Below are positions 17,863 through 61,772 of a DNA stretch of 64,000 nucleotides, piece after piece. Within the stretch, counting starts at the first letter, position 1; each line of letters begins with the position of its first letter. A model generated the notes under the pieces. That model did not search any database. It worked only from the letters and a program-made list of their open reading frames with translations, and was not told the DNA's origin. The DNA comes from Gemmatimonadota bacterium (GTDB lineage Bacteria; Gemmatimonadota; Gemmatimonadetes; Gemmatimonadales; GWC2-71-9), in NCBI GenBank assembly GCA_025358055.1, contig JANYKV010000095.1, positions 1 to 64,000 of the forward strand, written 5' to 3'. The position numbers and the translations under genes were made by a program.

Positions 17863-19299
17863 CTATCGCAACCCCACCAAGCCCCTGACCGAGGCGAACA
17901 GCTTCGCCGAGTCATACCCGACGCCATCTCGGAACACCAAAACGACGTTGCGGATGTCGCTGGGGTGCAGGGCGAGATCGCCCTTGAGCACGACCAGATC
18001 GGCGAGCTTGCCCGCGGTAACCGATCCGGTGCGATCGGCGATGCCCAACACGCGGGCTCCGTTCAAGGTCATGATCTGTACGGCCTCGGGCACCGTGAAT
18101 CCCGCTTCGACCAGGAGTTCGAGATTGCGCTGATCTCCGATTCCCGCCGGCGCGCTCCAAGCTGGGTCGACTCCGGCCGCGAGTACCCCGCCGGCCTTGA
18201 CGAACTCGCGTTCGAATTCCATCGCCTTTTTGTATACCGCGGGCAAGGTGGACCCGCTCGCCGATGCTGCGACCTGGGCTCGGCGAACCTCTTCTTCCGC
18301 CCGGGCATCCGCCGATAGCACGTCCCACACGCGCGGATCGGGTGCCGGCCGCCCTGGAATGGCGCATTCATAAACCGCCAGCGTCGACGTCATTGCCACC
18401 CCACGATTCACCATGGTCGAGATGGTGGCGCGAACTCGCGGATCGTTCACGAGGTCGAGACCCACGAGGGACTCGCGGTAAGTCCTTGGACAAAGATCCG
18501 GCTTCTTGTCGGGATCGAATTCGGAATCGTTGATGAGCCCGTGCTCGACCGCGTCGAAACCCAACTCGGCCGCCTCCTTGAAGCCCAACGAGCAAATGTG
18601 GCCGGTCACTTTGAGGCCGCGCTTGTGTGCCTCGGTGACGATTGCGGACGCGGTTTCACGGGTGAGCTGGGTATATACCTTGAGCCAAGTGGCACCCTCC
18701 TCCGCCCAATAGTCCACGACTCGCTTGGCTTGCTCCGCGCTGGTGAGTGGGTGCATTCCCAACAAGTCGATCCGCACGTCCGGCCCGGGGCTGATCAAAT
18801 ACGGGCCTGTCACGAACATGCGCGGCCCGGGAATGCTCCCCCGCTCGATGCCGGCTTTCAGGTTGAGCTCTGCGTAGGGTGAGGTGCTGCCGGTCGTCCG
18901 GATCGTGGTGACGCCGGCGCCGAGGTACAGCCGAGGCGCGGTGTAGTTGGACTGGGCGGCCCGGGGTGCGTTGGTGTAATAGAAGGTGTGGTTGTGGAGG
19001 CCGATCAGGCCCGGGATCACGGTATGACCCTCGAGATCCAGCGCCTTCGCACCCGCCGGGATGGTCGCACGGTTGGCGTCACCAAGCCAGACGATCTTGC
19101 CGTGATCGAGAATGACGGTCTGGTCGGTTCGGACGGCTCCGCCCGTGCCATCGATCAGCCGGACATGAGTCAGCGCGACGATGGGGGCGTCGACGGCGAC
19201 ATACTGCCGCGCCTCGGCGGCCAATGAAGCAACTTCCTGTGCCCAACAGGGGGAGGTGCCGGCCCAAATGAGGCCCGTGGTGACGAGGAGAGAGCGCAT
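17863..19299 (-). CDS. Secreted metal-dependent amidohydrolase
   Basis: 478 residues with a signal peptide cleaved near SPCWAQ. Amidohydrolase-superfamily metal ligands are visible: HxH in GLIGLHNHTF, the likely carboxylated Lys in ATWLKVYTQ, His in KVTGHIC and AVEHGL, and Asp in AAGVDPAW. Close relatives include prolidase-like and imidazolonepropionase-like enzymes, so an amide or dipeptide substrate in the periplasm is likely. The last Asp lies in GVDP instead of the usual GTDS. A GGATGCTCC stretch before the ATG may be its SD. It may be transcribed separately from the operon upstream. Confidence 0.87.
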   Translation of the reverse strand: MRSLLVTTGLIWAGTSPCWAQEVASLAAEARQYVAVDAPIVALTHVRLIDGTGGAVRTDQTVILDHGKIVWLGDANRATIPAGAKALDLEGHTVIPGLIGLHNHTFYYTNAPRAAQSNYTAPRLYLGAGVTTIRTTGSTSPYAELNLKAGIERGSIPGPRMFVTGPYLISPGPDVRIDLLGMHPLTSAEQAKRVVDYWAEEGATWLKVYTQLTRETASAIVTEAHKRGLKVTGHICSLGFKEAAELGFDAVEHGLINDSEFDPDKKPDLCPRTYRESLVGLDLVNDPRVRATISTMVNRGVAMTSTLAVYECAIPGRPAPDPRVWDVLSADARAEEEVRRAQVAASASGSTLPAVYKKAMEFEREFVKAGGVLAAGVDPAWSAPAGIGDQRNLELLVEAGFTVPEAVQIMTLNGARVLGIADRTGSVTAGKLADLVVLKGDLALHPSDIRNVVLVFRDGVGYDSAKLFASVRGLVGLR

Positions 19300-19402: not shown

Positions 19403-20191
19403 CTACTTGCGAATCCCCACTTCGGCTGATTGACCATACCGGTTTGCGGCGTTGATGAATTCACGGAACAGATGTCGAGTATGCGGGTCGGTCATTTCAA
19501 ATACCTCAGGATGCCACTGCACCCCGATCATGAAGTGGTCGTCGCTACCGGCTTCGAGTGCCTCGACGAGCCCGTCGGGTGCAACGGCCGAGGCGAAGAG
19601 GCCGGAGCCCAATTGCTTCACGCCCTGGTGGTGCATGCTATTGACCATGAGGTGCCGGAGCTCGAATGCGTGTTCCAATCGTGAACCTGGTTGGAGCACA
19701 ATGTCGTGGGCGAAATGATCGCGTTCGTAACCGGCGGTCGGGAAATAGTCGTGCTTGATCGCGCCGGGGAATTGTGCGGCCACATCTTGGTACAGCGTGC
19801 CTCCCTGGGCCACGTTGATGACTTGAAGGCCACGACACAGCCCGAACACGGGTTTCTTGTCTTCGACGGCCCAGCGGGCAAGCTGGAGCTCCACTCGATC
19901 GCGGGCCGGGTCGATTCGACCGAGGAGGGGATGGGGTTTTTCTCCGTAGGTCTCCGGATCCATGTCGACACCGCCGGCGAGCAAAATGCCGTCGAGGCGG
20001 TCGTAGATCTCGCGCAACGTATCCGGGTCGTCGTCGAGCAACGGAATCATCCAGGGAATCGCCCCGACGACCGTCGTGGCGAGGTAGTACCGCTGGTTCA
20101 TCACCCACGACTGAGGCAGGCCCTGAGGCACACCGTCGATGGCATGCAGCGTTTGGGTGGGAATTCCAATGACCGGACGACGTGAATACAT
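19403..20191 (-). CDS. Peptidase C26 / class I glutamine amidotransferase-like hydrolase (PuuD-like)
   Basis: 262 residues from ATG 20191, chosen because AGGAGA lies eight bases upstream; an 18-residue longer reading has no such site. The class I glutamine amidotransferase triad is visible: nucleophile Cys in VFGLCRGLQVINVAQGG and His/Glu in GVQWHPE. C26 enzymes such as PuuD hydrolyse gamma-glutamyl amide bonds. It is the last gene of the two-ligase operon, so it may trim a gamma-glutamyl group from the pathway product or intermediate, which is inference. Export signals are absent, so it is cytosolic. Confidence 0.9.
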   Translation of the reverse strand: MYSRRPVIGIPTQTLHAIDGVPQGLPQSWVMNQRYYLATTVVGAIPWMIPLLDDDPDTLREIYDRLDGILLAGGVDMDPETYGEKPHPLLGRIDPARDRVELQLARWAVEDKKPVFGLCRGLQVINVAQGGTLYQDVAAQFPGAIKHDYFPTAGYERDHFAHDIVLQPGSRLEHAFELRHLMVNSMHHQGVKQLGSGLFASAVAPDGLVEALEAGSDDHFMIGVQWHPEVFEMTDPHTRHLFREFINAANRYGQSAEVGIRK

Positions 20192-20193
20192 CG

Positions 20194-20352
20194 TTAGTTC
20201 TCCTGTCCGAGCCGACCCGAACGAACCCCAACCTCTTGGAGCCACGGCACTTCATGATAATCCCGGCAGATCACTCCCGGAACATAGGCTGCACGTTTGG
20301 GGCCAACGCCAGTGGGTGGCAAATGGTTCCGAGCTGCTAGCGGAAAGGTCAC
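20194..20352 (-). CDS. Small ORF of 52 codons between ATP-grasp and C26 genes
   Basis: GTG 20352 overlaps the stop of the ATP-grasp gene as GTGA and has GGAG about six bases upstream. The frame ends with TAA two bases before the next ATG, and the next gene's AGGAG lies inside its last codons. It therefore fills the only gap in the operon exactly. The product (MTFPLAARNHLPPTG at the start, a single Cys29, Tyr23/32, Trp37, ending GRLGQEN) matches nothing I recognise and has no signal peptide. Against it: only about half its third codon positions are G/C, below its neighbours. It could be a precursor or accessory peptide, or just a leader. Confidence 0.42.
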   Translation of the reverse strand: MTFPLAARNHLPPTGVGPKRAAYVPGVICRDYHEVPWLQEVGVRSGRLGQEN

Positions 20353-21743
20353 CGCGGCTCCACGACGAAGGTCGGCACGGTGGACCCGCCCCCGGCGGTC
20401 ACATTGACTAAGGTGGCGGTCGACACGCGAGTGAGGCAACCGTCGACATGAGTGCCCCCGAATACGAACGGAGCGGTGTCCACGATCCGGTCGGCGAAAT
20501 GGAGCTGTCCGTCGGCGAAACTGGGATACGTCTCTCGCGGGAGACCAATTCGCTCCTGCGCGATGAACGGGACGGTCAGTGCGGCCTGGACCGAACGCGA
20601 CCAGACGTCCTCCGTCACCTCCCAGCCGAGGACGATTCCCGCCCCGCCGTAGTCATCGTTGGGCTTGAGCACCATCCGTTCGCGATTGGCATGAAGGAAC
20701 GGGACCAGATCCACTCGGTCTCTTCGATGTTCGGTCCAGCGTTCTTCCACCACCCGGGTCCAGGGAACATGGGCGTCGATCACCGCGAGTTCATCGCGCC
20801 CAAAGAGGCTCCGATTTCGCTCATCGCTCAGGACTGCGAGGCTCGCTTTCTTGTGGAGGACCTTGCAAGCGAATGGGTTCACCATGCAAACCGCGCCATC
20901 CCGTACGGCGCGGACGATCGGGTGGTCTAGGCCGCCCCGCTCCAAAAGTTCGTTGATCAAGATTCGCTTGTAGATGAGGTGGATCTGGCGGCCGCCGCCA
21001 AACAGGGCTCCTCGAGCGTACTCGACTTCGCGTACGTCGGCAATGACGCACGGGACGCCCATCGATTCGAAGTATTGCTGATAGAGGATGAATTCGCTGT
21101 AGGTAGGGACCTCTTTCCAATCCAATATGCCGATGGTAGGTGTTTCGCGGCGCCCGAGCCAGAGATGGTACGCCCGGAGCAATGCATGAAGTACGTTGTG
21201 GCGGGTGGGAAGCGGGCGGACGTCATACCGAGTCAGGAAGTCTTGCATTCCGGGCAGGGCCAGAAAGAGTTCCTGGAGGACGTCGCCGTACGCCGCACCC
21301 GCCGGAGTTTCCGCGTTGTACTCCGTGAAGCGGAGGGACCCATCTCCGGCATCGAAGAATGCGTCCAGGCGAGAAACCGGACTGGGCGTCATCGGCCGTG
21401 GTTCCGGCCGGCCCGCCTCGGCCCGCGTCACCAGGCCGGCGCTCAATAACTGCTCCTCCGTTTCGGTGAGCCGAAATTGGCGGAGGAGCCCGCGGTCCCG
21501 GAGCGCCGCGCTCTGCGCTCTATTGAAGGCCTTGAGCAGGGGCGCGATTCGTGATTTGAGCAGTTCGTACTGCGCCACCGTCAAGAATCGAGGCCGAAGC
21601 ACCGTACACAGCGGACGGTCACCAAAGAAGAGCCCGCGGCGGTCGAGTTGTGCCGTGAGCCACGTAGAGGACTCCTCCGCTCGTTCGGTGGTGAGCGACT
21701 GGTCATACGTGTCGATGGCGCGAGTCAGCGCAGTGTCGGTCAT
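20349..21743 (-). CDS. Circularly permuted ATP-grasp ligase
   Basis: 464 residues related to the circularly permuted ATP-grasp families (glutathionylspermidine-synthetase-like and COG2308-type). Useful landmarks are RFTEYNAETPAGAAYGD (about 140-157), the nucleotide-binding stretch VLKPNDDYGGAGIVLG (about 355-370) and the end CLTRVSTATLVNVTAGGG. Such enzymes form amide bonds through acyl-phosphate intermediates using ATP and Mg. It lies 7 bases after the other ATP-grasp gene. The substrate cannot be told. There is no alpha-E or transglutaminase partner as in COG2308 operons, so this is a different context. Confidence 0.82.
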   Translation of the reverse strand: MTDTALTRAIDTYDQSLTTERAEESSTWLTAQLDRRGLFFGDRPLCTVLRPRFLTVAQYELLKSRIAPLLKAFNRAQSAALRDRGLLRQFRLTETEEQLLSAGLVTRAEAGRPEPRPMTPSPVSRLDAFFDAGDGSLRFTEYNAETPAGAAYGDVLQELFLALPGMQDFLTRYDVRPLPTRHNVLHALLRAYHLWLGRRETPTIGILDWKEVPTYSEFILYQQYFESMGVPCVIADVREVEYARGALFGGGRQIHLIYKRILINELLERGGLDHPIVRAVRDGAVCMVNPFACKVLHKKASLAVLSDERNRSLFGRDELAVIDAHVPWTRVVEERWTEHRRDRVDLVPFLHANRERMVLKPNDDYGGAGIVLGWEVTEDVWSRSVQAALTVPFIAQERIGLPRETYPSFADGQLHFADRIVDTAPFVFGGTHVDGCLTRVSTATLVNVTAGGGSTVPTFVVEPR

Positions 21744-21750
21744 GCGCGGG

Positions 21751-22710
21751 TCACGAGGGGACGCGGGGAGCCACAGTGCGGCCCTTCAAGAACAGTTGCC
21801 AACCGGGTTTGTTCACCGGCGTCGGATGCTTCGCCATCTTGATCGCCATGTCGGCCATTGCCTTCACGACCCACTCGAAATGGACCGGAGTGAGGCTGTA
21901 GATGTCCATGTCCGGCGCGGGGTTCATGAAGTCGATGGCATATGGGATGCCGTCGCGAACCGCCCATTCGATGGAATTCATATCGTATCCCAAGGCCCGA
22001 ACCAAGGTCAACGAATCGGCCACCACCCGATCATGCAGAACCGGCGGCAGGAAATCGAGTTCGGGATGGTATTTCCGCGCCTTCGGGTCGTACTTGATGG
22101 GCCGAATCACGTCCTGGCCGAGACAGATACAGCGGATAAACTCATCCCACTTGATAAACTCTTGCACGATCATGGTGAGAAGCCCAGAATGATCGTAGTG
22201 ATGCAAAAGCTCCTCCTTTGTTTGGCACACATACACTTCCTTCCACCCACCCCCGTGCGCGTCCTTGAGAATGCAGGGGAGTCCGATGTATTCGACCACC
22301 CCGTCCCAATCGAGCGGAAACGCCAAGTTGCGTAGGCTTTCGGAATGCACGATTCCGGGCACGTACTCTTTGTTGGGAAGAACGATTGTTCTTGGGCTCG
22401 CCAGCCCAAGCGCCGTCGCGAGAGTCGCGCCGAAGAACTTGTCGTCCGACGACCACATGAACGGATTGTTGACGACCGTCACACCCTGCAGTGCGGCGTG
22501 CTTCAAATAGGTCCGGTAGAACGGCACCTCATGCGAGATACGGTCGATGATGACCGCGTATCGTGAGGCGTCATCCATTCGGGGCGCACCGAGGGTCACG
22601 AGCTCGGCCACGACACCCTCGTTTCGCTTGTTCACCGCCTCAATGAACGCCGGAGGAAACGACCACTCCCTTCCAACGATGAGCCCAATCCGCTTCGGTT
22701 CCAGCGCCAT
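21751..22710 (-). CDS. RimK-like ATP-grasp ligase
   Basis: 319 residues with the ordinary ATP-grasp order. A pre-ATP domain starts RIGLIVGREWSFPPAF. Then come the Lys of the glycine-rich loop region in PCILKDAHGGGWKEVYV, an acidic metal site in SIEWAVRDGIPYAIDFMNPAPD and a short C-terminal tail. RimK/DdlB relatives ligate amino acids or small acids to an amine. The metal-binding Glu/Asn pair appears as D-MNP in FMNPAPD. It is the third gene of the operon and lies 41 bases after esterase B. With the permuted ligase it suggests two successive amide-forming steps. Confidence 0.82.
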   Translation of the reverse strand: MALEPKRIGLIVGREWSFPPAFIEAVNKRNEGVVAELVTLGAPRMDDASRYAVIIDRISHEVPFYRTYLKHAALQGVTVVNNPFMWSSDDKFFGATLATALGLASPRTIVLPNKEYVPGIVHSESLRNLAFPLDWDGVVEYIGLPCILKDAHGGGWKEVYVCQTKEELLHHYDHSGLLTMIVQEFIKWDEFIRCICLGQDVIRPIKYDPKARKYHPELDFLPPVLHDRVVADSLTLVRALGYDMNSIEWAVRDGIPYAIDFMNPAPDMDIYSLTPVHFEWVVKAMADMAIKMAKHPTPVNKPGWQLFLKGRTVAPRVPS

Positions 22711-22751
22711 GCGTTGCTCCTTGTTTGGCAGTTACCTTCCCGCCTTCCCGC

Positions 22752-23471
22752 CTAGTCATGTCCTCCGATATACATCCGGATCATGCGTTCCCAATACGGC
22801 CAATCATGCGACCACCCGTCCCACACGCGAAAGGCGTTGCCGATTCCCCGGTCCCATAGAATCGTGGAGAATTCTCGATTGTTCGCGTATGAGGCGTCTT
22901 CGCGCCCGGTGACGAGAATGATGTCCTGTCGGCGAAATGCCGCAAGCCGAGCCGGGTCCCCTTCGTGTCGCATAAAGTCAAAGGGATTGCAGGCGTAGAC
23001 ATTGTCATCCGAATACCCACCGGTAAATCGTTTAATGTCGTACAGGCCGCTCATGCCGATGATACGGTGAACCCGTTCCGGATGTCTGAGGCCGAAGCAG
23101 GCGGCGTGATAGGCGCCGAAACTCGCGCCTACCGTGATGACGAACGGATTCGGATTCTTCGCTTGGCTCCACGGTAGGACCTCATCGTGGAGATACCGGT
23201 CATACTCGAGGTGCCGCCAGGCCATCGCGCCGGGATGTAACTCCTTCGCGTACCAACTTTCGCTGTGGACCTGATCGACACAGAACATCTGAATCCAGCC
23301 CCGATCGAGGTGCTCTCGCAGCACCTCGTGCATGTGGCGGTCGGCCCATTCCCGGTGGGTTCCCATGGTTGTAGGGAACACGAGGACCCGGGCCCCCGCG
23401 TGGCCAAACACGGTGACGTCCATTGGCCGGTTAAGGGCAGGGCTGTACCACTGATGATGCTCGTAGTTCAC
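22752..23471 (-). CDS. Alpha/beta-hydrolase esterase (COG4947-like), esterase B
   Basis: 239 residues from GTG 23471, which overlaps the upstream esterase stop (GTGA); the longer in-frame reading to 23732 runs antiparallel logic through esterase A and is rejected. It begins VNYEHHQWYSPALNRPMDV and holds a serine nucleophile in TVGASFGAYHAACFG and a likely catalytic His in WSHDWPYWERM. The fold resembles esterase D/antigen 85-type proteins. No signal peptide, so cytosolic. Together with esterase A it may release or transfer an acyl or ester-bound intermediate, which is inference. Confidence 0.83.
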   Translation of the reverse strand: MNYEHHQWYSPALNRPMDVTVFGHAGARVLVFPTTMGTHREWADRHMHEVLREHLDRGWIQMFCVDQVHSESWYAKELHPGAMAWRHLEYDRYLHDEVLPWSQAKNPNPFVITVGASFGAYHAACFGLRHPERVHRIIGMSGLYDIKRFTGGYSDDNVYACNPFDFMRHEGDPARLAAFRRQDIILVTGREDASYANNREFSTILWDRGIGNAFRVWDGWSHDWPYWERMIRMYIGGHD

Positions 23472-24280
23472 GAAGTTTCTCGCCGTCGGAGCAGGAATGG
23501 GAGCGCCGAGGCGAATCGGCGGCCCCAAGCGGATTCGTGATGGTCCGCCCCTTCCTCTTCCTCGTAGGACAAGTTCTCCCCCTCGCGATAGCCCTTGTCG
23601 AGGAGTAGGTCGCGCAGCCGGCGAACATCCGCCACCGCGTCGGCACCTTCCTCCGATCCGACGTCGACGTGGATGACACCGCTCTTTTCGCGCCCACCGA
23701 GCCACTCGAAGACGGCCCCGTCCCCAAACCAAAGCGCCGGACTGATCACCGCCGCGGCCCCAAACAGGGCCGGATGCCGAAAGAGGGCATACAGACTGAG
23801 GAGTCCCCCGAGTGACGACCCACCAATTCCGGTGTGATCCCGATCCGGCATGGTGCGAAAGTCCCGGTCAATCCGGGGCTTGATCGTGTCCGTAATGAAA
23901 GCGAGATAGCGGTCGCCGCCGCCGCCGCCGTGGATCATATCGCGAAACGGGCTGTACTCATAGCGCCGTGCGCGTCCCATGTTGGGGATTCCCACCACGA
24001 TCGCCTCGTGGCCGCGGCGGGCCACATTGGACAATGTCTCCCCCAGCTCCCAATGCGCGACGTAACTCGTCGCGGGGTCGAATAGGTTCTGGCCATCTTG
24101 CATGTACAACACGGGATACGAGCGATCGGACGAGCCGTAACTGGGTGGAAGCGCCACGAGAACATCTCGCCGGTTCTGGAGTTGCGGGCTCCAGAACCGC
24201 CGAAGGACCTTGAACTCCGGAACGTCCCCGGGCAGTGGCTCGACCCGGAGCGGGTAGTGCTCCCAGGTTGCCTTCAGCAT
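23468..24280 (-). CDS. Alpha/beta-hydrolase esterase (Fes/IroE-like), esterase A
   Basis: 270 residues with DVLVALPPSYG and PVLYMQDGQNLFD near the start, nucleophile Ser in GIGGSSLGGLLSLYA and catalytic His in GADHHESAWGRR. It belongs to the putative esterase family that includes enterochelin esterases. A Gly5 run (about residues 128-132) is encoded by GCC repeats. It opens the leftward operon and is divergent from the EAL gene across 124 bp that hold two hairpins. No signal peptide is seen, which argues for an intracellular substrate. Confidence 0.85.
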   Translation of the reverse strand: MLKATWEHYPLRVEPLPGDVPEFKVLRRFWSPQLQNRRDVLVALPPSYGSSDRSYPVLYMQDGQNLFDPATSYVAHWELGETLSNVARRGHEAIVVGIPNMGRARRYEYSPFRDMIHGGGGGDRYLAFITDTIKPRIDRDFRTMPDRDHTGIGGSSLGGLLSLYALFRHPALFGAAAVISPALWFGDGAVFEWLGGREKSGVIHVDVGSEEGADAVADVRRLRDLLLDKGYREGENLSYEEEEGADHHESAWGRRFASALPFLLRRRETS

Positions 24281-24315
24281 GTCGCTCGAATGGCCAGTCC
24301 CTCCTCAAGTTCTCG

Positions 24316-24366
24316 CCCTGGGGGCCGATACTGCCCCAGGGGGGTTCCCTGGGCGGAACCAGGGAA
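24316..24366. promoter_or_regulatory. Two adjacent hairpins in the divergent esterase/EAL intergenic region
   Basis: CCCTGGGG (24316-24323) pairs with CCCCAGGG (24334-24341), loop 10. TTCCCTGG (24345-24352) pairs with CCAGGGAA (24359-24366), loop 6. Both stems are perfect 8-mers, three bases apart, ending 38 bases before the EAL GTG. They could be leader hairpins or operators. No U-tract follows, so a simple terminator is unlikely. Confidence 0.45.
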
Positions 24367-24404
24367 AAGCTATCTCAAGACCGCGTGGCAGAGAAGGAGC
24401 GCGT

Positions 24405-25235
24405 GTGGACGATCGGGTGAAGGGGTCCCAGGTGTTTGAGGGCGCCGTTCGCAGGGCGCTCCGGGAAGATCGTTTCCAGGTGCACGCCCAACGAATCGTG
24501 CGGCTTCAGCAGCGCCCAGGGACCACGACGCCGGATTGTTTCGAACTGTTGGTTCGTCTCGATGACTCCGTCAACGGGGCCCTCCTTCCGGAGGACTTTT
24601 TCGCGATCGCGGAGCGCCGGAGCCTACTCCCTCGAATCGACGAATGGGTGCTTGGTGCGGCCCTGGCATGGCTGGCGGCGCGCCAGGAGGCTGAGCCCAA
24701 CCAGCCGCTTCCGCTCCTATTCGTCAATTTGAGCGTTCAGACCCTGCGCAGCGACCGGGCGTACAACGTGATTGCGAATCGGCTCCGTCATTCTCCCATT
24801 CCGCCGGACGCCCTCGTGTTCGAGCTGTCCGAGCCGATGATTCAGTCCCATACGAACCGCGTGTCCGAGTTCATGGACCTTCTGCGCATGCTGGGCGGGC
24901 GCTTCTGCTTGGAACATCTGGGTCGCGGGTTCACCTCGTTCGACCTGCTCAAGCAGCTTCCATTCGACTACGTGAAACTCGACCGGTCACTCACGAGTGC
25001 GCTGCTCACTGATCCGGTGGACGGGGCCATCGCAGCCGGGATCACCCGAGTAGCGCACGTGCTCGGGGCCGAGGTCATCGCGCAAGGAGTGAGCGATGCG
25101 GAGATTCTGCCATCGCTCGCGGCCCTGGGTGTCGACCTGGTTCAGGGGTTCGCGATCGATCCCCCCGGCCCACTCGCCGATCTGTTGTCGGTTCGCAGCA
25201 ATGCCGACGCCATGGCGTCTCGCTCGACGTCCTGA
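24405..25235 (+). CDS. Degenerate EAL-domain protein
   Basis: 276 residues from GTG 24405, with AAGGAG close upstream. The EAL fold is clear (ELLVRLDD, FVNLSVQTL, FELSEPM, LPFDYVKLDRS, VQGFAI), but the catalytic DDFG motif reads EHLGRG and the AEGVE motif reads AQGVSD. Two metal-binding Asp and a Glu are therefore lost, so c-di-GMP hydrolysis is unlikely. It has no GGDEF, PAS or membrane segment. It may be a c-di-GMP receptor or a protein-protein adaptor. Divergent from the ligase operon. Confidence 0.85.
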   Translation: MDDRVKGSQVFEGAVRRALREDRFQVHAQRIVRLQQRPGTTTPDCFELLVRLDDSVNGALLPEDFFAIAERRSLLPRIDEWVLGAALAWLAARQEAEPNQPLPLLFVNLSVQTLRSDRAYNVIANRLRHSPIPPDALVFELSEPMIQSHTNRVSEFMDLLRMLGGRFCLEHLGRGFTSFDLLKQLPFDYVKLDRSLTSALLTDPVDGAIAAGITRVAHVLGAEVIAQGVSDAEILPSLAALGVDLVQGFAIDPPGPLADLLSVRSNADAMASRSTS

Positions 25236-53041: not shown

Positions 53042-54628
53042 CTAGGGCACCTCTCTCCGAATGACGCGACCTGCAAGCACCCCAGTCTGACGCCCGTGGT
53101 CAATGACGATTTCCCCATTGAGGACCACGTAGCTCACGCCGTTCGCCAGCCGGTCCGGGGCGATGTAGGTGGCCCGATCACGGTAGGTTGCGGTATCGAT
53201 CACCACCACGTCGGCGAAAGCTCCCGCGCGTAACACACCCCGATCGTGAATGTGGAACGCCTCCGCCGTTTTTCGGCTGCTGGATTCCACGAACTGGGCC
53301 AGGCTCATCAACCCTTTCTCTTGAACAAACTCCCGAAACTTTCGCGGGAAGGTGCCGAACTTGCGGGGATGGCCGTCCGATCCATCCGATCCGGTGGATA
53401 CGAAGTCCTGAACCATGAACCGTTCGAGGTCGGACTCGTTCATATTGAACGAGGCGACTCCCACGTCGCCGTGAATGATGACTCCAATTGCCGCGTCGGT
53501 CGGCGAGATCCGTCGCGTTGCCGCTACCTGCGCCAACGTCTTGGTTCGGAGCCTAGTGTCCTGAGTTCCGGTGAACAGCAACGATTCTGCGCCCCCTCGT
53601 CGCCGGAGGTTCTCAGTCATCTCTTTCACCAAACGGGGATGGGTTGCGGGATTGTGGAGCCGGGCCACTAACGAGTCTCTGCCCCCGACCTCGGCCCAGC
53701 GCGGAAGCAGCGCGGCGCCCAGGCTCGTGCCCGAGGCGAGGTAGGGGTACTGGTCCGCCGAGACGACCACTCCCTCTCGTTGCGCCTGACGGACAAGCGC
53801 GATCACGCTATCACTTTGTCCCCACACATCCGCTCCAAGAGCCTTGATATGCGAAATGTGGACGGGGATCTTTGCCTCGCGCCCAATTCTGAGGGCCTCG
53901 GCAACTGCGGCAAGCAATCCGATGGTGTACGAACTCTCATCGCGGATATGCGAGTCGTATATGCCGCCATAACCAGAGGCAACCTGGGCCAGGACGATCA
54001 CCTCGTCGGTGGCCGCGTAGCTCCCGGGGGCGTAATAGAGCCCGCTGGAGAGGCCAAGAGCTCCTCCGCGCATCGCACTGTCGACCAACGATCGCATCCG
54101 GGCCAATTGCGCCAGGTCCGGCGCGGCTTCCGACATGCCCAGCACCGTGCCCCGAACGGTGCCATGACCAACCAGGAGCGCCGCATTGGTGCCGATTCCG
54201 GTGTGCTCCCACTTCGCCAATCGCTCGGCGACATTGATGGGTCCGCCCCCATCGTTCCCCGTGACGACAGTGGTGACACCTTGGGCCAAATAGTTCAGAT
54301 TCTTGCGCCGGACAGGGTCCGTGAGATCCGCCTCCGTGTGCGTGTGGGGGTCGATGAATCCGGGCGACACGATCAGGCCGCGGGCATCGATTGTTCGGCG
54401 GGCGGAAGGACGATCGGTGCCTGCCGGGGCCGCAATCCAGAGAATGCGATCGTCCCGGATCGCCACGTCCGCGATTCGGGGGCGTGCCCCGGTGCCGTCA
54501 ACGATCGTTCCGCCGTAAATGAGGATACTGACCGAATCCGGGACCACGACCCGCGAGGATCGACCGGCTGACGCCCCGCCTAACCCGCTTGCGACGAGCG
54601 CCATTACCAGCAGCGGGCCATGCCTCAT
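53042..54628 (-). CDS. N-acyl-D-amino-acid deacylase-like amidohydrolase
   Basis: 528 residues with an N-terminal signal segment (LLVMALVASGLGGASAG). D-aminoacylase landmarks: GFIDPHTHTEADL, His residues in YDSHIRDESS and VHISHIKALG, and Asp in STGSDGSDGHPR. Such zinc enzymes remove the acyl group from N-acyl-D-amino acids, often from peptidoglycan- or antibiotic-derived substrates. Its ATG overlaps the nadC stop (ATGA), an odd partnership. It is followed by about 200 non-coding bases. Confidence 0.88.
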   Translation of the reverse strand: MRHGPLLVMALVASGLGGASAGRSSRVVVPDSVSILIYGGTIVDGTGARPRIADVAIRDDRILWIAAPAGTDRPSARRTIDARGLIVSPGFIDPHTHTEADLTDPVRRKNLNYLAQGVTTVVTGNDGGGPINVAERLAKWEHTGIGTNAALLVGHGTVRGTVLGMSEAAPDLAQLARMRSLVDSAMRGGALGLSSGLYYAPGSYAATDEVIVLAQVASGYGGIYDSHIRDESSYTIGLLAAVAEALRIGREAKIPVHISHIKALGADVWGQSDSVIALVRQAQREGVVVSADQYPYLASGTSLGAALLPRWAEVGGRDSLVARLHNPATHPRLVKEMTENLRRRGGAESLLFTGTQDTRLRTKTLAQVAATRRISPTDAAIGVIIHGDVGVASFNMNESDLERFMVQDFVSTGSDGSDGHPRKFGTFPRKFREFVQEKGLMSLAQFVESSSRKTAEAFHIHDRGVLRAGAFADVVVIDTATYRDRATYIAPDRLANGVSYVVLNGEIVIDHGRQTGVLAGRVIRREVP

Positions 54629-57690: not shown

Positions 57691-59979
57691 ATGGAGCCCA
57701 AAGTGCGCCGCTGGTTTCCCTTCGTCGCCTCCCGCCTGGTTTCCCTCGGGATGATCGTCGCGGTGTCCGCCGCGGCAGCCGCGACTCTGCTGCCCGTTCC
57801 GACCTCGGCCCAAGCCCCGTCCAAACGACCCATGACGTTTCTAGATGCTCTCCAATTGCGGACTGCAAGTTTGCCGACGCTTTCGCCCGACCTCAAGTGG
57901 GCGCTCTACTCGATCTCCAGCCTGGACTGGAAAGAGGGCAAGCGTCACACCGACCTGTGGGTCACGCCGATCGATCAAGGGGCTACGTCGGCGCGTCAGT
58001 TGACGTTTACCCGGGACAAGAATGAGCACGGCGCTCGTTGGGCTCCCGACGGCCGGTTTTTCCTCTTTCTCTCGGATCGTGATGCACCGGCAACGACCGT
58101 GGGTCAGGAACAGCTGTATCTGATGCGTCCGGACGGCGGCGAGGCCCGGCGTCTGACCGACGCCAAAGACGGTGTCGGCAACTTCGATCTCAGTCGAGAT
58201 GGAAAGTGGCTGGTGTATGCGGCGGGGAAGGCGGACGATCGCCAGCTTTGGGCGCTACGCCTCGCGGGCATCGATACGGCCCAGGCCGCGCAACTCACGA
58301 AGCACGCGTCGCCCATCGATACATGGCAATTTTCCTGGGACGGCAGCAGGATCTACTTCCTGGCCGCAGACAGCCTGGATAAGGACGACAAGACCCGCGT
58401 GGAAAAGAAGTTCGATGCTCGCCTGCGCAACGAGGTCAAGTCCCCCGTTCATCTGTGGGCCCTCGATATCGCCCAGAAGCGGGAGAGTCGATTGACACGC
58501 GACCCCGCTTATTCGGTGAGCGACGTCACCTTCTCACGCGATGGGAAGTGGCTTGGCTTTCGAGGCACACCCAACGACCGGTACCTGCGGACGGTCACGG
58601 AGACCACGATTTATGGAGATCTCTACTTACTCGAGACTTCCTCCGGAAAAATCGAGCGACTGACCAACAACACCGAGATCGCGGAAAGCGAGCTGTCGTT
58701 TTCGCCGGACGGCGTCCAAATCGCCTTTTCGGCTTCGGATGACTTCGCCTATTTTCGTAACACCCGCGTGTACCTGCGGCCGGTTTCCGAGCCCACCACT
58801 GCGTGGCGCAAACTCGGCACGTCGTTTGATGGAGACGTGTCGGTCGAATGGTGGTCGGATGACGGGAAGACGATTTACTTCAACGAGGGCATCAAGGCGA
58901 CCGAGCAGGTGCTCGCACTCAACGTGCTGGACGGGAGCGTTCGCCAGCTCACCACCACGCAGGCATCGACGTTCGCCAGCAGAACTCCGGACCGGCCGGA
59001 GATCTTCGTCCTGTACTCGGACCCTGTGACGCCCACGGACTACTACTTGATCGGAGGGTCGGGACAGCTCTCGGATCGAAGTCAGTGGAAACGGCTCACT
59101 CGCGCCAATCCGCTGGCCGATGATTTCCTCATCGGTGCCTCTGAGGAGGTGAGCTGGAAATCGGCGGACGGCAAGATGGTGGGTGGTATTCTCCTCAAGC
59201 CCGTGGGATACCAGCCCGGGCGACGATATCCGCTAATCGTCCAGATCCACGGTGGGCCGGCTGGGGCGGATCGGCTGTCCTACAACGAAGGATACGAATC
59301 CCAAGTTTATGCCGGTGAATCATACGTGGTGTTGATGCCGAATTACCGCGGCTCGAGCAACTACGGCGAGCGACATCGCTCCGAGATCGCAGGGAACTAC
59401 TTCCAACGCGGCTATGAAGACATCATGACCGGCGTGGATTGGCTTATCGCACAAGGTCTGGTTCACCCCGACAGTCTTGGCGTCATGGGGTGGAGCGCCG
59501 GCGGCCACTGGTCCAACTGGATCCTGACCCATACCACCCGATTCAAAGCCATTTCGTCGGGGGCCGGAACGATGAATTGGATTTCAATGTATGCCCAGAG
59601 CGACATTCAGCGAAATCGTCAATTCTACTTGGGCGGCAAGTTGCCCTATGACGACTTCGAGGCCTATTGGAAGGTCTCTCCGCTCAAATACATCAAGAAC
59701 GCGCGGACCCCCACGCTCATACACGTCGTGGATGGCGACCCACGAGTGCCTCGTCCGCAGAGCGAGGAACTTCACATGGCGCTCAAGAAACTTGGCGTGC
59801 CCACGGAGTTCTTCGTGTATCCGGGCACGACCCACGGAATTCCCGATCCTCGCAACCGGCTGCTGAAGGCCGTCGCGGAGTTTCGGTGGTTTGAAAAATG
59901 GATTCGGGGGAAACCCGGTTGGTTCCATTGGAGAGAGCTGCTGAAGACGCTGGACGACACCGAAGAAAAGAAGAATTGA
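57691..59979 (+). CDS. Prolyl oligopeptidase family (S9) serine peptidase
   Basis: 762 residues from ATG 57691; the longer frame reading back to 56965 crosses the acyltransferase gene and is rejected. Signal peptide (MIVAVSAAAAATLLPVPTSAQA), a beta-propeller of WD/PD40-like repeats (about 50-480: ARWAPDGRFFLFLSDRD, DLSRDGKWLVYAAG), then an alpha/beta-hydrolase with Ser in MGWSAGGHWSNW, Asp in VVDGDPRVP and His in THGIPD. It should cleave short peptides in the periplasm. Confidence 0.93.
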   Translation: MEPKVRRWFPFVASRLVSLGMIVAVSAAAAATLLPVPTSAQAPSKRPMTFLDALQLRTASLPTLSPDLKWALYSISSLDWKEGKRHTDLWVTPIDQGATSARQLTFTRDKNEHGARWAPDGRFFLFLSDRDAPATTVGQEQLYLMRPDGGEARRLTDAKDGVGNFDLSRDGKWLVYAAGKADDRQLWALRLAGIDTAQAAQLTKHASPIDTWQFSWDGSRIYFLAADSLDKDDKTRVEKKFDARLRNEVKSPVHLWALDIAQKRESRLTRDPAYSVSDVTFSRDGKWLGFRGTPNDRYLRTVTETTIYGDLYLLETSSGKIERLTNNTEIAESELSFSPDGVQIAFSASDDFAYFRNTRVYLRPVSEPTTAWRKLGTSFDGDVSVEWWSDDGKTIYFNEGIKATEQVLALNVLDGSVRQLTTTQASTFASRTPDRPEIFVLYSDPVTPTDYYLIGGSGQLSDRSQWKRLTRANPLADDFLIGASEEVSWKSADGKMVGGILLKPVGYQPGRRYPLIVQIHGGPAGADRLSYNEGYESQVYAGESYVVLMPNYRGSSNYGERHRSEIAGNYFQRGYEDIMTGVDWLIAQGLVHPDSLGVMGWSAGGHWSNWILTHTTRFKAISSGAGTMNWISMYAQSDIQRNRQFYLGGKLPYDDFEAYWKVSPLKYIKNARTPTLIHVVDGDPRVPRPQSEELHMALKKLGVPTEFFVYPGTTHGIPDPRNRLLKAVAEFRWFEKWIRGKPGWFHWRELLKTLDDTEEKKN

Positions 59980-60038: not shown

Positions 60039-61772
60039 GTGCAAAAACGCCACATATTGGCCAGAGTCACTGTGGTCACCTTGGTTCGATCCGTGACTCA
60101 ACTTTGCGGTGTCCTCGCTCTGTGGCCATTGGCCATTCAGGGACAAACGGTCACCGCCGACCTCATCTTCCGAAACGGTACGGTGTACACCGCGGATGAC
60201 AATCATCCACGCGCACAGGGGATAGCCGTTAAAGCGGGTCGGATCGTGTACGTCGGCTCCAATGATGGATTGAAGTCATACACCGGGGCCGCGACCCGAA
60301 CCATCGATCTGAAGGGCGCCACCGTCCTGCCTGGCCTCACCGATGCTCACTACCATCTGGCCGGCGTTGGCGAACGGGAAATGACCCTCAATCTCGAGGG
60401 TACGACCAGTCTCGCCGATTTCCTTGCCAAGGTCAAAGCGCGCGTCGCCACGGCGGAGCGCGGTACTTGGGTTGTTGGAACGGGCTGGATCGAGACGTTT
60501 TGGAAACCGCAAGCGTTTCCGACCCTAGGGGATCTCGATGCCATCGCCCCATCGAATCCCGTCTTCCTGGTCCGCGCCGACGGGCATGCGGCGGCCGTTA
60601 ACAGCGCTGCGCTTCGGATCGGCGGGGTTGACGCGAAAACACCGAACCCTTTTGGCGGGGAAATATCGAAAGACCCGAAGACCGGTCAGCTCACCGGCAT
60701 GTTGCTCGATGGCGCCATCGGTCTGGTGGCCGGAAAAATCCCCCCCCGCACTCCGGAGCAAGCAGCTCAGGCGGTAGTCCTCGGAGTGCAGCGCAGCCTC
60801 GGGCTCGGCTGGACCGAGATTCAAGACGCGGGCGGGTCATACCAGGAAGTGGAACTCTTTCGACGCCTATACCGCGAAGGCAAGATCAAACTTCGGATCT
60901 ACAAGGCGATGCATGGGCCGGGGCCTGACGCGGATCGGCTGATTCGTGAAGGCGCGCACGCTCCAGAGTTCGACGAGCGCTTTACCCTCCGCACGATCAA
61001 GGTGGTGCTCGATGGCGCGCTCGGTAGCCGTGGCGCGGCCTTGCTCGCCCCCTACTCCGATGCTCCGAATACCTCCGGCTTCTTCACGGCCAAGGAGGCC
61101 GAGCTCAGGCCGATGCTCCAACGGGCGTTGGGCGCCGGCATTCAGGTGGAGACCCATGCGATTGGTGACCGGGCGAACCGAACGATTCTCGATCTCTACG
61201 AAGAGGCGTTCAAAGCCGTTGCGGCTTCCGAACGCAAAGTGGCGGAGCCGCGGTGGCGAGTGGAACATGCTCAAATCGTCAACCCGGCGGACATTCCCCG
61301 CTTTGCATCATTGCACGTGATTCCGTCGATGCAGGCCTCCCACGCGATCGGCGATTTGTATTTTGCTCCCAAACGCCTGGGTCAGGAACGGTTGAAAGGC
61401 GCCTACGCCTGGCAGAGTTTCCTGAAGCTCGGGCTACCCGTCGCGGGTGGGTCGGACGCCCCGGTAGAACGGGGAGAGCCCATGATCGAGTTCTATGCCG
61501 CGGTCACTCGGAAGGACCTCAAGGGAAATTCCGGCGAGGGGTGGCACCCGGAGGAGCGGGTGACGAGAGCCCAGGCCCTCAAGATGCTAACGCTGTGGCC
61601 GGCCTACGCCGCTTTCGAGGAAGGACGCCGGGGCTCCATTCAGACTGGGAAGCTTGCGGATCTCACCGTACTCTCGGCGGACGTCATGGTGATTCCGGAC
61701 CTCGACATTCTCAAAACGCGCTGTCTCATGACGGTGGTGGGTGGTGAAATTGTGTATCAGGCGGCGCCGTGA
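60039..61772 (+). CDS. YtcJ-like amidohydrolase
   Basis: 577 residues from GTG 60039, with TTTGGAG upstream. N-terminal export segment (VTQLCGVLALWPLAIQG). The amidohydrolase-3 pattern is complete: GLTDAHYHLAG, HAIGDRANRTI and GGSDAPVERGEPM. Substrates of this subfamily are largely unknown. It overlaps the LpqC-like gene by four bases (GTGA) and lies 60 bases after the S9 peptidase, so these three form a likely secreted hydrolase unit. Confidence 0.9.
   Translation: MQKRHILARVTVVTLVRSVTQLCGVLALWPLAIQGQTVTADLIFRNGTVYTADDNHPRAQGIAVKAGRIVYVGSNDGLKSYTGAATRTIDLKGATVLPGLTDAHYHLAGVGEREMTLNLEGTTSLADFLAKVKARVATAERGTWVVGTGWIETFWKPQAFPTLGDLDAIAPSNPVFLVRADGHAAAVNSAALRIGGVDAKTPNPFGGEISKDPKTGQLTGMLLDGAIGLVAGKIPPRTPEQAAQAVVLGVQRSLGLGWTEIQDAGGSYQEVELFRRLYREGKIKLRIYKAMHGPGPDADRLIREGAHAPEFDERFTLRTIKVVLDGALGSRGAALLAPYSDAPNTSGFFTAKEAELRPMLQRALGAGIQVETHAIGDRANRTILDLYEEAFKAVAASERKVAEPRWRVEHAQIVNPADIPRFASLHVIPSMQASHAIGDLYFAPKRLGQERLKGAYAWQSFLKLGLPVAGGSDAPVERGEPMIEFYAAVTRKDLKGNSGEGWHPEERVTRAQALKMLTLWPAYAAFEEGRRGSIQTGKLADLTVLSADVMVIPDLDILKTRCLMTVVGGEIVYQAAP

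Follow-up and report, generated by a model that had tools for sequence, protein, structure and literature searches.

The five genes at 19403-24280 of the window, the whole 64,000-nucleotide stretch of Gemmatimonadota DNA that was analysed, are perhaps best understood as a reduced member of a peptide-ligase pathway found in several phyla. On this tentative reading, the pathway would make a short peptide or amide of the gamma-glutamyl type by a soluble cascade with turnover enzymes of its own, and its core would comprise a RimK-like ligase, a circularly permuted ATP-grasp ligase of the glutathione-synthetase fold, a YbdK/GCS2 ligase and a COG4947 esterase. Relatives use three ligases, one of which has apparently been lost from the window genome. 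All five ORFs of the locus are intact and uninterrupted, and all are on the minus strand:

23468..24280, minus strand: Fes/IroE-like serine esterase (P0005; PF00756)
22752..23471, minus strand: COG4947-like alpha/beta-hydrolase esterase (P0004; GTG start; PF00756)
21751..22710, minus strand: RimK-like ATP-grasp ligase (P0003; NCBIfam rimK_fam and AF2 fold)
20349..21743, minus strand: circularly permuted ATP-grasp ligase (P0002; PF14403)
20192..20348, minus strand: gap of 157 bp where most relatives in the phylum have YbdK/GCS2
19403..20191, minus strand: C26 gamma-glutamyl hydrolase-like amidase (P0001; PF07722)

The original prediction had named five leftward genes of these families, and the ORFs and their Pfam and NCBIfam matches agree with it. 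It had also called the genes tightly packed, which is true of four and not of the fifth: the start of the COG4947-like gene overlaps the stop of the Fes-like gene by 4 bp (GTGA; the mechanical ORF call is longer), 41 bp lie between the COG4947-like and RimK-like genes and 7 bp between the latter and the permuted ATP-grasp gene, whereas C26 is set apart by the 157-bp gap. The C26 gene starts at an ATG with GGAG upstream, and a longer version starting from the GTG at 20245 is unlikely. An amidohydrolase gene (17863-19299) follows 103 bp downstream on the same strand. No terminator was found inside the gene set, promoter signals were no better than in shuffles, and a search for an RNA element gave no Rfam match. 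A RiPP reading was rejected, the packed genes leaving no space for a precursor ORF and none being conserved alongside. Judged by their pN/pS against relatives (0.18-0.50), the window genes are under purifying selection. The gene set is not a product of chance, since its order is conserved in other genera and phyla at ~50-80% protein identity, pN/pS is low and the catalytic residues are conserved.

Far from being scattered, homologues of these genes keep the same neighbourhood in Gemmatimonadota, Chloroflexota and Planctomycetota, as expected of the single conserved unit that had been proposed. Across 61 related genomes, the RimK-like and permuted ATP-grasp genes co-occur and are adjacent, and the only genome with a RimK-like gene and no permuted ATP-grasp is one (G008) where the gene is cut by a contig end. 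At least 542 relatives of the RimK-like protein emerged when one genome per species was scanned; the best 80 of these belong mainly to the same three phyla, with a few from MAGs labelled Acidobacteria, Rubrobacter and others, although MAG labels can err. Neighbours were counted over 91 unique loci, taking as denominator the loci with room to see the gene in question. Downstream of the RimK-like gene come the permuted ATP-grasp (70 of 73 loci) and GCS2 (45 of 63); COG4947 lies upstream in 66 of 82, C26 is close by in 33 of 50 and a Fes gene is near in 29 of 67. The Fes-like esterase and C26 are common accessories rather than core members, and their absence from many loci counts against our preferred reading. 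Pairwise divergences of the cluster families are correlated (r 0.33-0.69), which co-inheritance predicts, as does shared species history.

The cluster is patchy, with RimK-positive genomes making up 76 of 298 Gemmatimonadota and 37 of 151 Chloroflexota, and its composition varies. The window has the adjacent RimK-like and permuted ATP-grasp genes together with COG4947 (20349-23471). In deeper Chloroflexota clades, the RimK-like, permuted ATP-grasp and GCS2 genes are still adjacent in varying order (L146, L149-L151, L154, L155), and in some clades of that phylum COG4947, RimK-like, permuted ATP-grasp and GCS2 genes form a tight block without C26. Several Gemmatimonadota carry an extra ATP-grasp pair of the L-amino-acid-ligase (LAL)/biotin-carboxylase type adjoining Fes (L100 3304-5794; also L028, L031, L048, L066, L090, L105, L108, L110 and L116), bringing the number of amide ligases per cluster to as many as five. 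The description of the locus as a two-ligase system thus needs qualification: both ligases are present, but the conserved core of the relatives has a third, YbdK/GCS2, and in view of the wider sets of the relatives (GCS2, the LAL-type pair) the window has a pared-down form of that three-ligase core.

In most Gemmatimonadota, a GCS2 protein of ~370 residues is encoded between the permuted ATP-grasp and C26 genes or just past C26; it matches PF04107 at 1.9e-55, and its closest solved structure is YbdK (1r8g, 1.9e-52). GCS2 is found in 73 of 76 RimK-positive vs 52 of 222 RimK-negative Gemmatimonadota (Fisher p ~3e-31, kinship ignored), and in each of the 16 genomes reached from loci outside that phylum, whether within the locus or at another site. 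For example, one genome (G130, with a locus of the L113 type) has a GCS2-C26 pair ~20 kb from the cluster. Only three RimK-positive Gemmatimonadota are without it: the window genome, G233, whose contig stops inside C26 (L138), and G186, which has a divergent variant of the locus (L139). GCS2 is absent from the window locus, and tblastn matches to a GCS2 remnant in the 157-bp gap were at chance level only. A search of the window and its own assembly, a single MAG-like one that is 93% complete and the sole member of its genus, also found no GCS2, so that the genome falls outside the three-ligase type defined by GCS2/YbdK in locus or genome. Given that completeness and the lack of a congener, the absence of GCS2 from the genome as a whole is likely rather than certain. 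As to an alternative gamma-glutamyl ligase, the same assembly has no GshA family protein (PF04262), and a search with the LAL-type pair gave weak generic ATP-grasp matches only. Where GCS2 is off-cluster or in cluster-free genomes, it adjoins an M17 leucyl aminopeptidase gene (PepA; L119, L120, L121, L127, L129, L130, L132, L133, L135, L141) and sometimes a monomeric isocitrate dehydrogenase gene. Two points about GCS2 weigh against our preferred reading: the YbdK-type enzyme has other roles too, being encoded next to PepA where the other ligases are missing, and the window ligases stay constrained in its absence, so that the first intermediate may not be its product.

The permuted ATP-grasp protein matches PF14403 (CP_ATPgrasp_2) only marginally, at 5e-8 and 32.7 bits against a curated cut-off of 32, and a Chloroflexota orthologue falls below that cut-off at 27.9 bits; the window protein has no other Pfam match. 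Residues R125, E141, N143, K360 and R439 are conserved, and the putative ATP/Mg ligands E141, N143, K299, K360, N362, G366 and G367 are conserved in 83 sequences, as would be expected of an active version of the family. Its AF2 model (pLDDT 93.6) is most similar in Foldseek to human and plant glutathione synthetase (6.9e-19; TM ~0.69 for the AF2 model) and homoglutathione synthetase (5e-18), followed by 3n6x, E. coli YjfC/YgiC, GspS (~2e-13), trypanothione synthetase and Cp1B (9cjn). Profile matches were to 3n6x (8e-11) and to YgiC/YjfC (6e-4 to 8e-4). The protein does not belong by sequence to the eukaryotic-type glutathione synthetase family, with which it shares 13-16% identity in structural alignment. 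YgiC and YjfC are peptide-spermidine ligases, Cp1B is a pseudodipeptide ligase and homoglutathione synthetase also has a related fold (PMC12568646). This likeness holds at the level of enzyme class: the model supports the joining of a carboxylate to an amine, for which a gamma-glutamyl peptide or a peptide-amine would be a natural guess, and the fold is no proof of a gamma-glutamyl substrate because permuted ATP-grasps generally resemble eukaryotic glutathione synthetase.

The RimK-like protein has no Pfam match. It matches NCBIfam rimK_fam at 2.6e-10, under the cut-off, and scores 40.1 bits against the 143.4 needed for the RimK family alpha-L-glutamate ligases (TIGR00768), though its fold is similar; the closest folds to its AF2 model (pLDDT 89.7) are a Ddl-like ligase, RimK and ArgX/LysX, and K149, E184, E248, D260 and N263 are conserved. 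C26 matches PF07722 (Peptidase_C26) at 2.2e-62 and has the Cys-His-Glu triad of the family (C118, H226, E228 in P0001 numbering, which leaves out the start Met). Its closest solved structure is Lin1909 (3fij, 2.8e-44), followed by SpuA and PuuD, and it scores 117.5 bits against the 266 of the PuuD equivalog (NF008471). PuuD and SpuA cleave gamma-glutamyl amides. Both esterases match PF00756, the Fes-like one at E=1.3e-31 and the COG4947-like one at E=2.1e-7. The former is closest among solved structures to IroE-like 3gff (E=1.6e-13), with fungal siderophore esterases also near, and has the nucleophile S156 (GSSLG) and H247, its catalytic residues being conserved in 38 relatives. The latter has the nucleophile S120 (GASFG) and H225, likewise conserved in relatives and numbered from P0004, which begins 3 residues upstream of the GTG start.

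Ligases and hydrolases together fit a pathway that assembles and trims an amide or peptide, as had been suggested. In the relatives, GCS2 would convert an amino acid to its gamma-glutamyl (or similar) amide, which the RimK-like enzyme would extend or cap with an amino acid; the permuted ATP-grasp enzyme, in the manner of glutathione, homoglutathione and peptide-spermidine synthetases, would attach the terminal amino acid or amine. C26 might cut the gamma-glutamyl bond in turnover, while the two serine esterases might cleave an ester or thioester form. With GCS2 gone from the window, the remaining ligases would either depend on an outside source for their gamma-glutamyl or other carboxylate substrate or build a shorter product. 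It is a rather doubtful step further to propose that the cluster makes an undescribed and widely shared class of gamma-glutamyl tripeptides or peptide-amides, which would act alongside bacillithiol in roughly one in four Gemmatimonadota and Chloroflexota, and that the window lineage makes a GCS2-independent variant.

Several known systems resemble this one in part. As in glutathione biosynthesis, the relatives pair a GCS2-family ligase with a permuted ATP-grasp of the glutathione-synthetase fold and add a gamma-glutamyl hydrolase; unlike it, the cluster has an extra RimK-like ligase and two esterases, the identity to glutathione synthetases is low, the host has a bacillithiol gene and the window is without GCS2. 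GspS, YgiC/YjfC and 3n6x provide the nearest solved sequence profiles, a permuted ATP-grasp joins a peptide carboxylate to an amine in these systems, and C26 homologues work in polyamine breakdown; here, in contrast, the permuted ATP-grasp has no amidase domain and sits in another operon. Iyer et al. reportedly predicted, in 2009, peptide systems in which a permuted ATP-grasp and an alpha-E domain are found with other amidoligases and hydrolases, including an NTN hydrolase. The cluster shares such a combination of permuted ATP-grasp, amidoligases and hydrolases, but the Pfam matches of its conserved genes include no alpha-E domain or NTN hydrolase, and COG4947, C26 and Fes take their place. 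In the E-64 and dapdiamide pathways, stand-alone ATP-grasp ligases also act in series, and Cp1B is one of the closest structural matches to the permuted ATP-grasp; the present cluster differs in having no ANL-type amide synthetase or oxygenase and in being far more conserved. We found no description of the neighbourhood, including COG4947 with ATP-grasp, in open-access papers, and the 2009 amidoligase survey by Iyer et al. may contain it.

The foremost alternative, which we consider unlikely, is a secondary metabolite, such as an NRPS-independent pseudopeptide or siderophore-like chelator, that the ligases build, the Fes/IroE-type esterases hydrolyse (either for release or as self-protection) and C26 deprotects. 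It would account for the patchy distribution and for the likeness of the Fes-like protein to IroE and fungal siderophore esterases, and stand-alone ATP-grasp enzymes do make E-64 and dapdiamides (PMC12568646). However, the neighbourhood has no conserved transporter, regulator or tailoring enzyme, the Fes-like gene is absent in more than half of the loci, and the ligases are unusually conserved across phyla (61-81% identity for RimK-like, 64-82% for GCS2).

Post-translational tagging, in which the RimK-like enzyme would add a peptide or amino-acid tail to a protein and C26 would take it off, is a distinctly poorer prospect. RimK adds glutamates to ribosomal protein S6, and the RimK-like protein has a RimK-type fold; but there is no conserved gene for a small acceptor protein or precursor beside the core, and three separate ligases with two esterases suit a small molecule better.

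The cluster could also make a glutathione-like primary low-molecular-weight thiol in bacteria without glutathione, an idea in keeping with the combination of GCS2, a glutathione-synthetase-fold ligase and a gamma-glutamyl hydrolase, with the superfamily that the esterases share with S-formylglutathione hydrolase, and with the M17 aminopeptidase adjoining GCS2 encoded in trans. We regard it as very improbable. The window has no gamma-glutamyl ligase, and the bacillithiol gene bshC, rather than being absent, is found in 286 of 298 Gemmatimonadota; the window genome (4.2e-68) and almost every RimK-positive one are among them, so there is no thiol gap for a replacement to fill. Bacillithiol in Gemmatimonadetes has also been predicted elsewhere (PMC6282198).

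That the window pathway is decaying and no longer functional would fit the loss of GCS2 without a remnant. There is little likelihood of it, however, as none of the five genes still present is disrupted, their catalytic residues are conserved and their pN/pS is low. Least probable of all is that the cluster is an accessory of alpha-glucan (glycogen) metabolism, whose product or esterases would have a modified glucan, or the regulator of that glucan, as their target. In its favour, 13 of 94 loci have GlgA, GH57 or DUF3536 genes no more than ~10 kb away, to the left or right and on either strand, and in two Chloroflexota the gene for a DUF3417 glycogen phosphorylase is immediately preceded by a RimK-like paralogue (L152 3980-7217, L153 7098-10500). 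Yet most loci, and the window too, have no such genes, and the glucan-linked loci are not independent because they come mostly from one phylum.

Returning to the multi-phylum peptide-ligase pathway, its core ligases, at ~60-80% identity between phyla, are conserved at a level usual for central-metabolism enzymes, and no Pfam family covers the RimK-like member. Two non-MAG carriers (Roseisolibacter sp. H3M3-2, L110; Gemmata sp. IIL30, L086), together with the natural contrast between three-ligase and two-ligase versions, open both the product and the part played by the missing ligase to direct testing.

A number of other features were seen at individual loci. A class IV aminotransferase gene lies between COG4947 and the RimK-like gene in one Chloroflexota locus (L151 6466-7317), and could supply an unusual or D-amino acid. 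The divergent variant mentioned above (L139 3588-8935) encodes a LAL-type ATP-grasp, a 308-aa protein without a Pfam match, a 415-aa RimK-like protein and COG4947, and its esterase has an enterochelin-esterase N-terminal domain. Seven loci (L024, L027, L097, L099, L106, L112, L114) share two to three conserved genes upstream of the RimK-like gene, encoding proteins of 313, 112 and 108 aa, the first two without a Pfam match; the gene order in this group is RimK, permuted ATP-grasp, C26, GCS2. LAL-type ATP-grasp pairs often adjoin GH57/DUF3536/GlgA genes. In the window itself, an EAL-domain-like protein (by eye) is encoded on the plus strand at 24279-25235, divergently from the Fes gene, the two start regions being close or overlapping. 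Several amidohydrolase-like proteins and an S9-type peptidase were also recognized by eye (17863-19299, 53042-54547, 57871-59979, 60129-61772), and their presence in one 64-kb window suggests a peptide- and amide-scavenging lifestyle.
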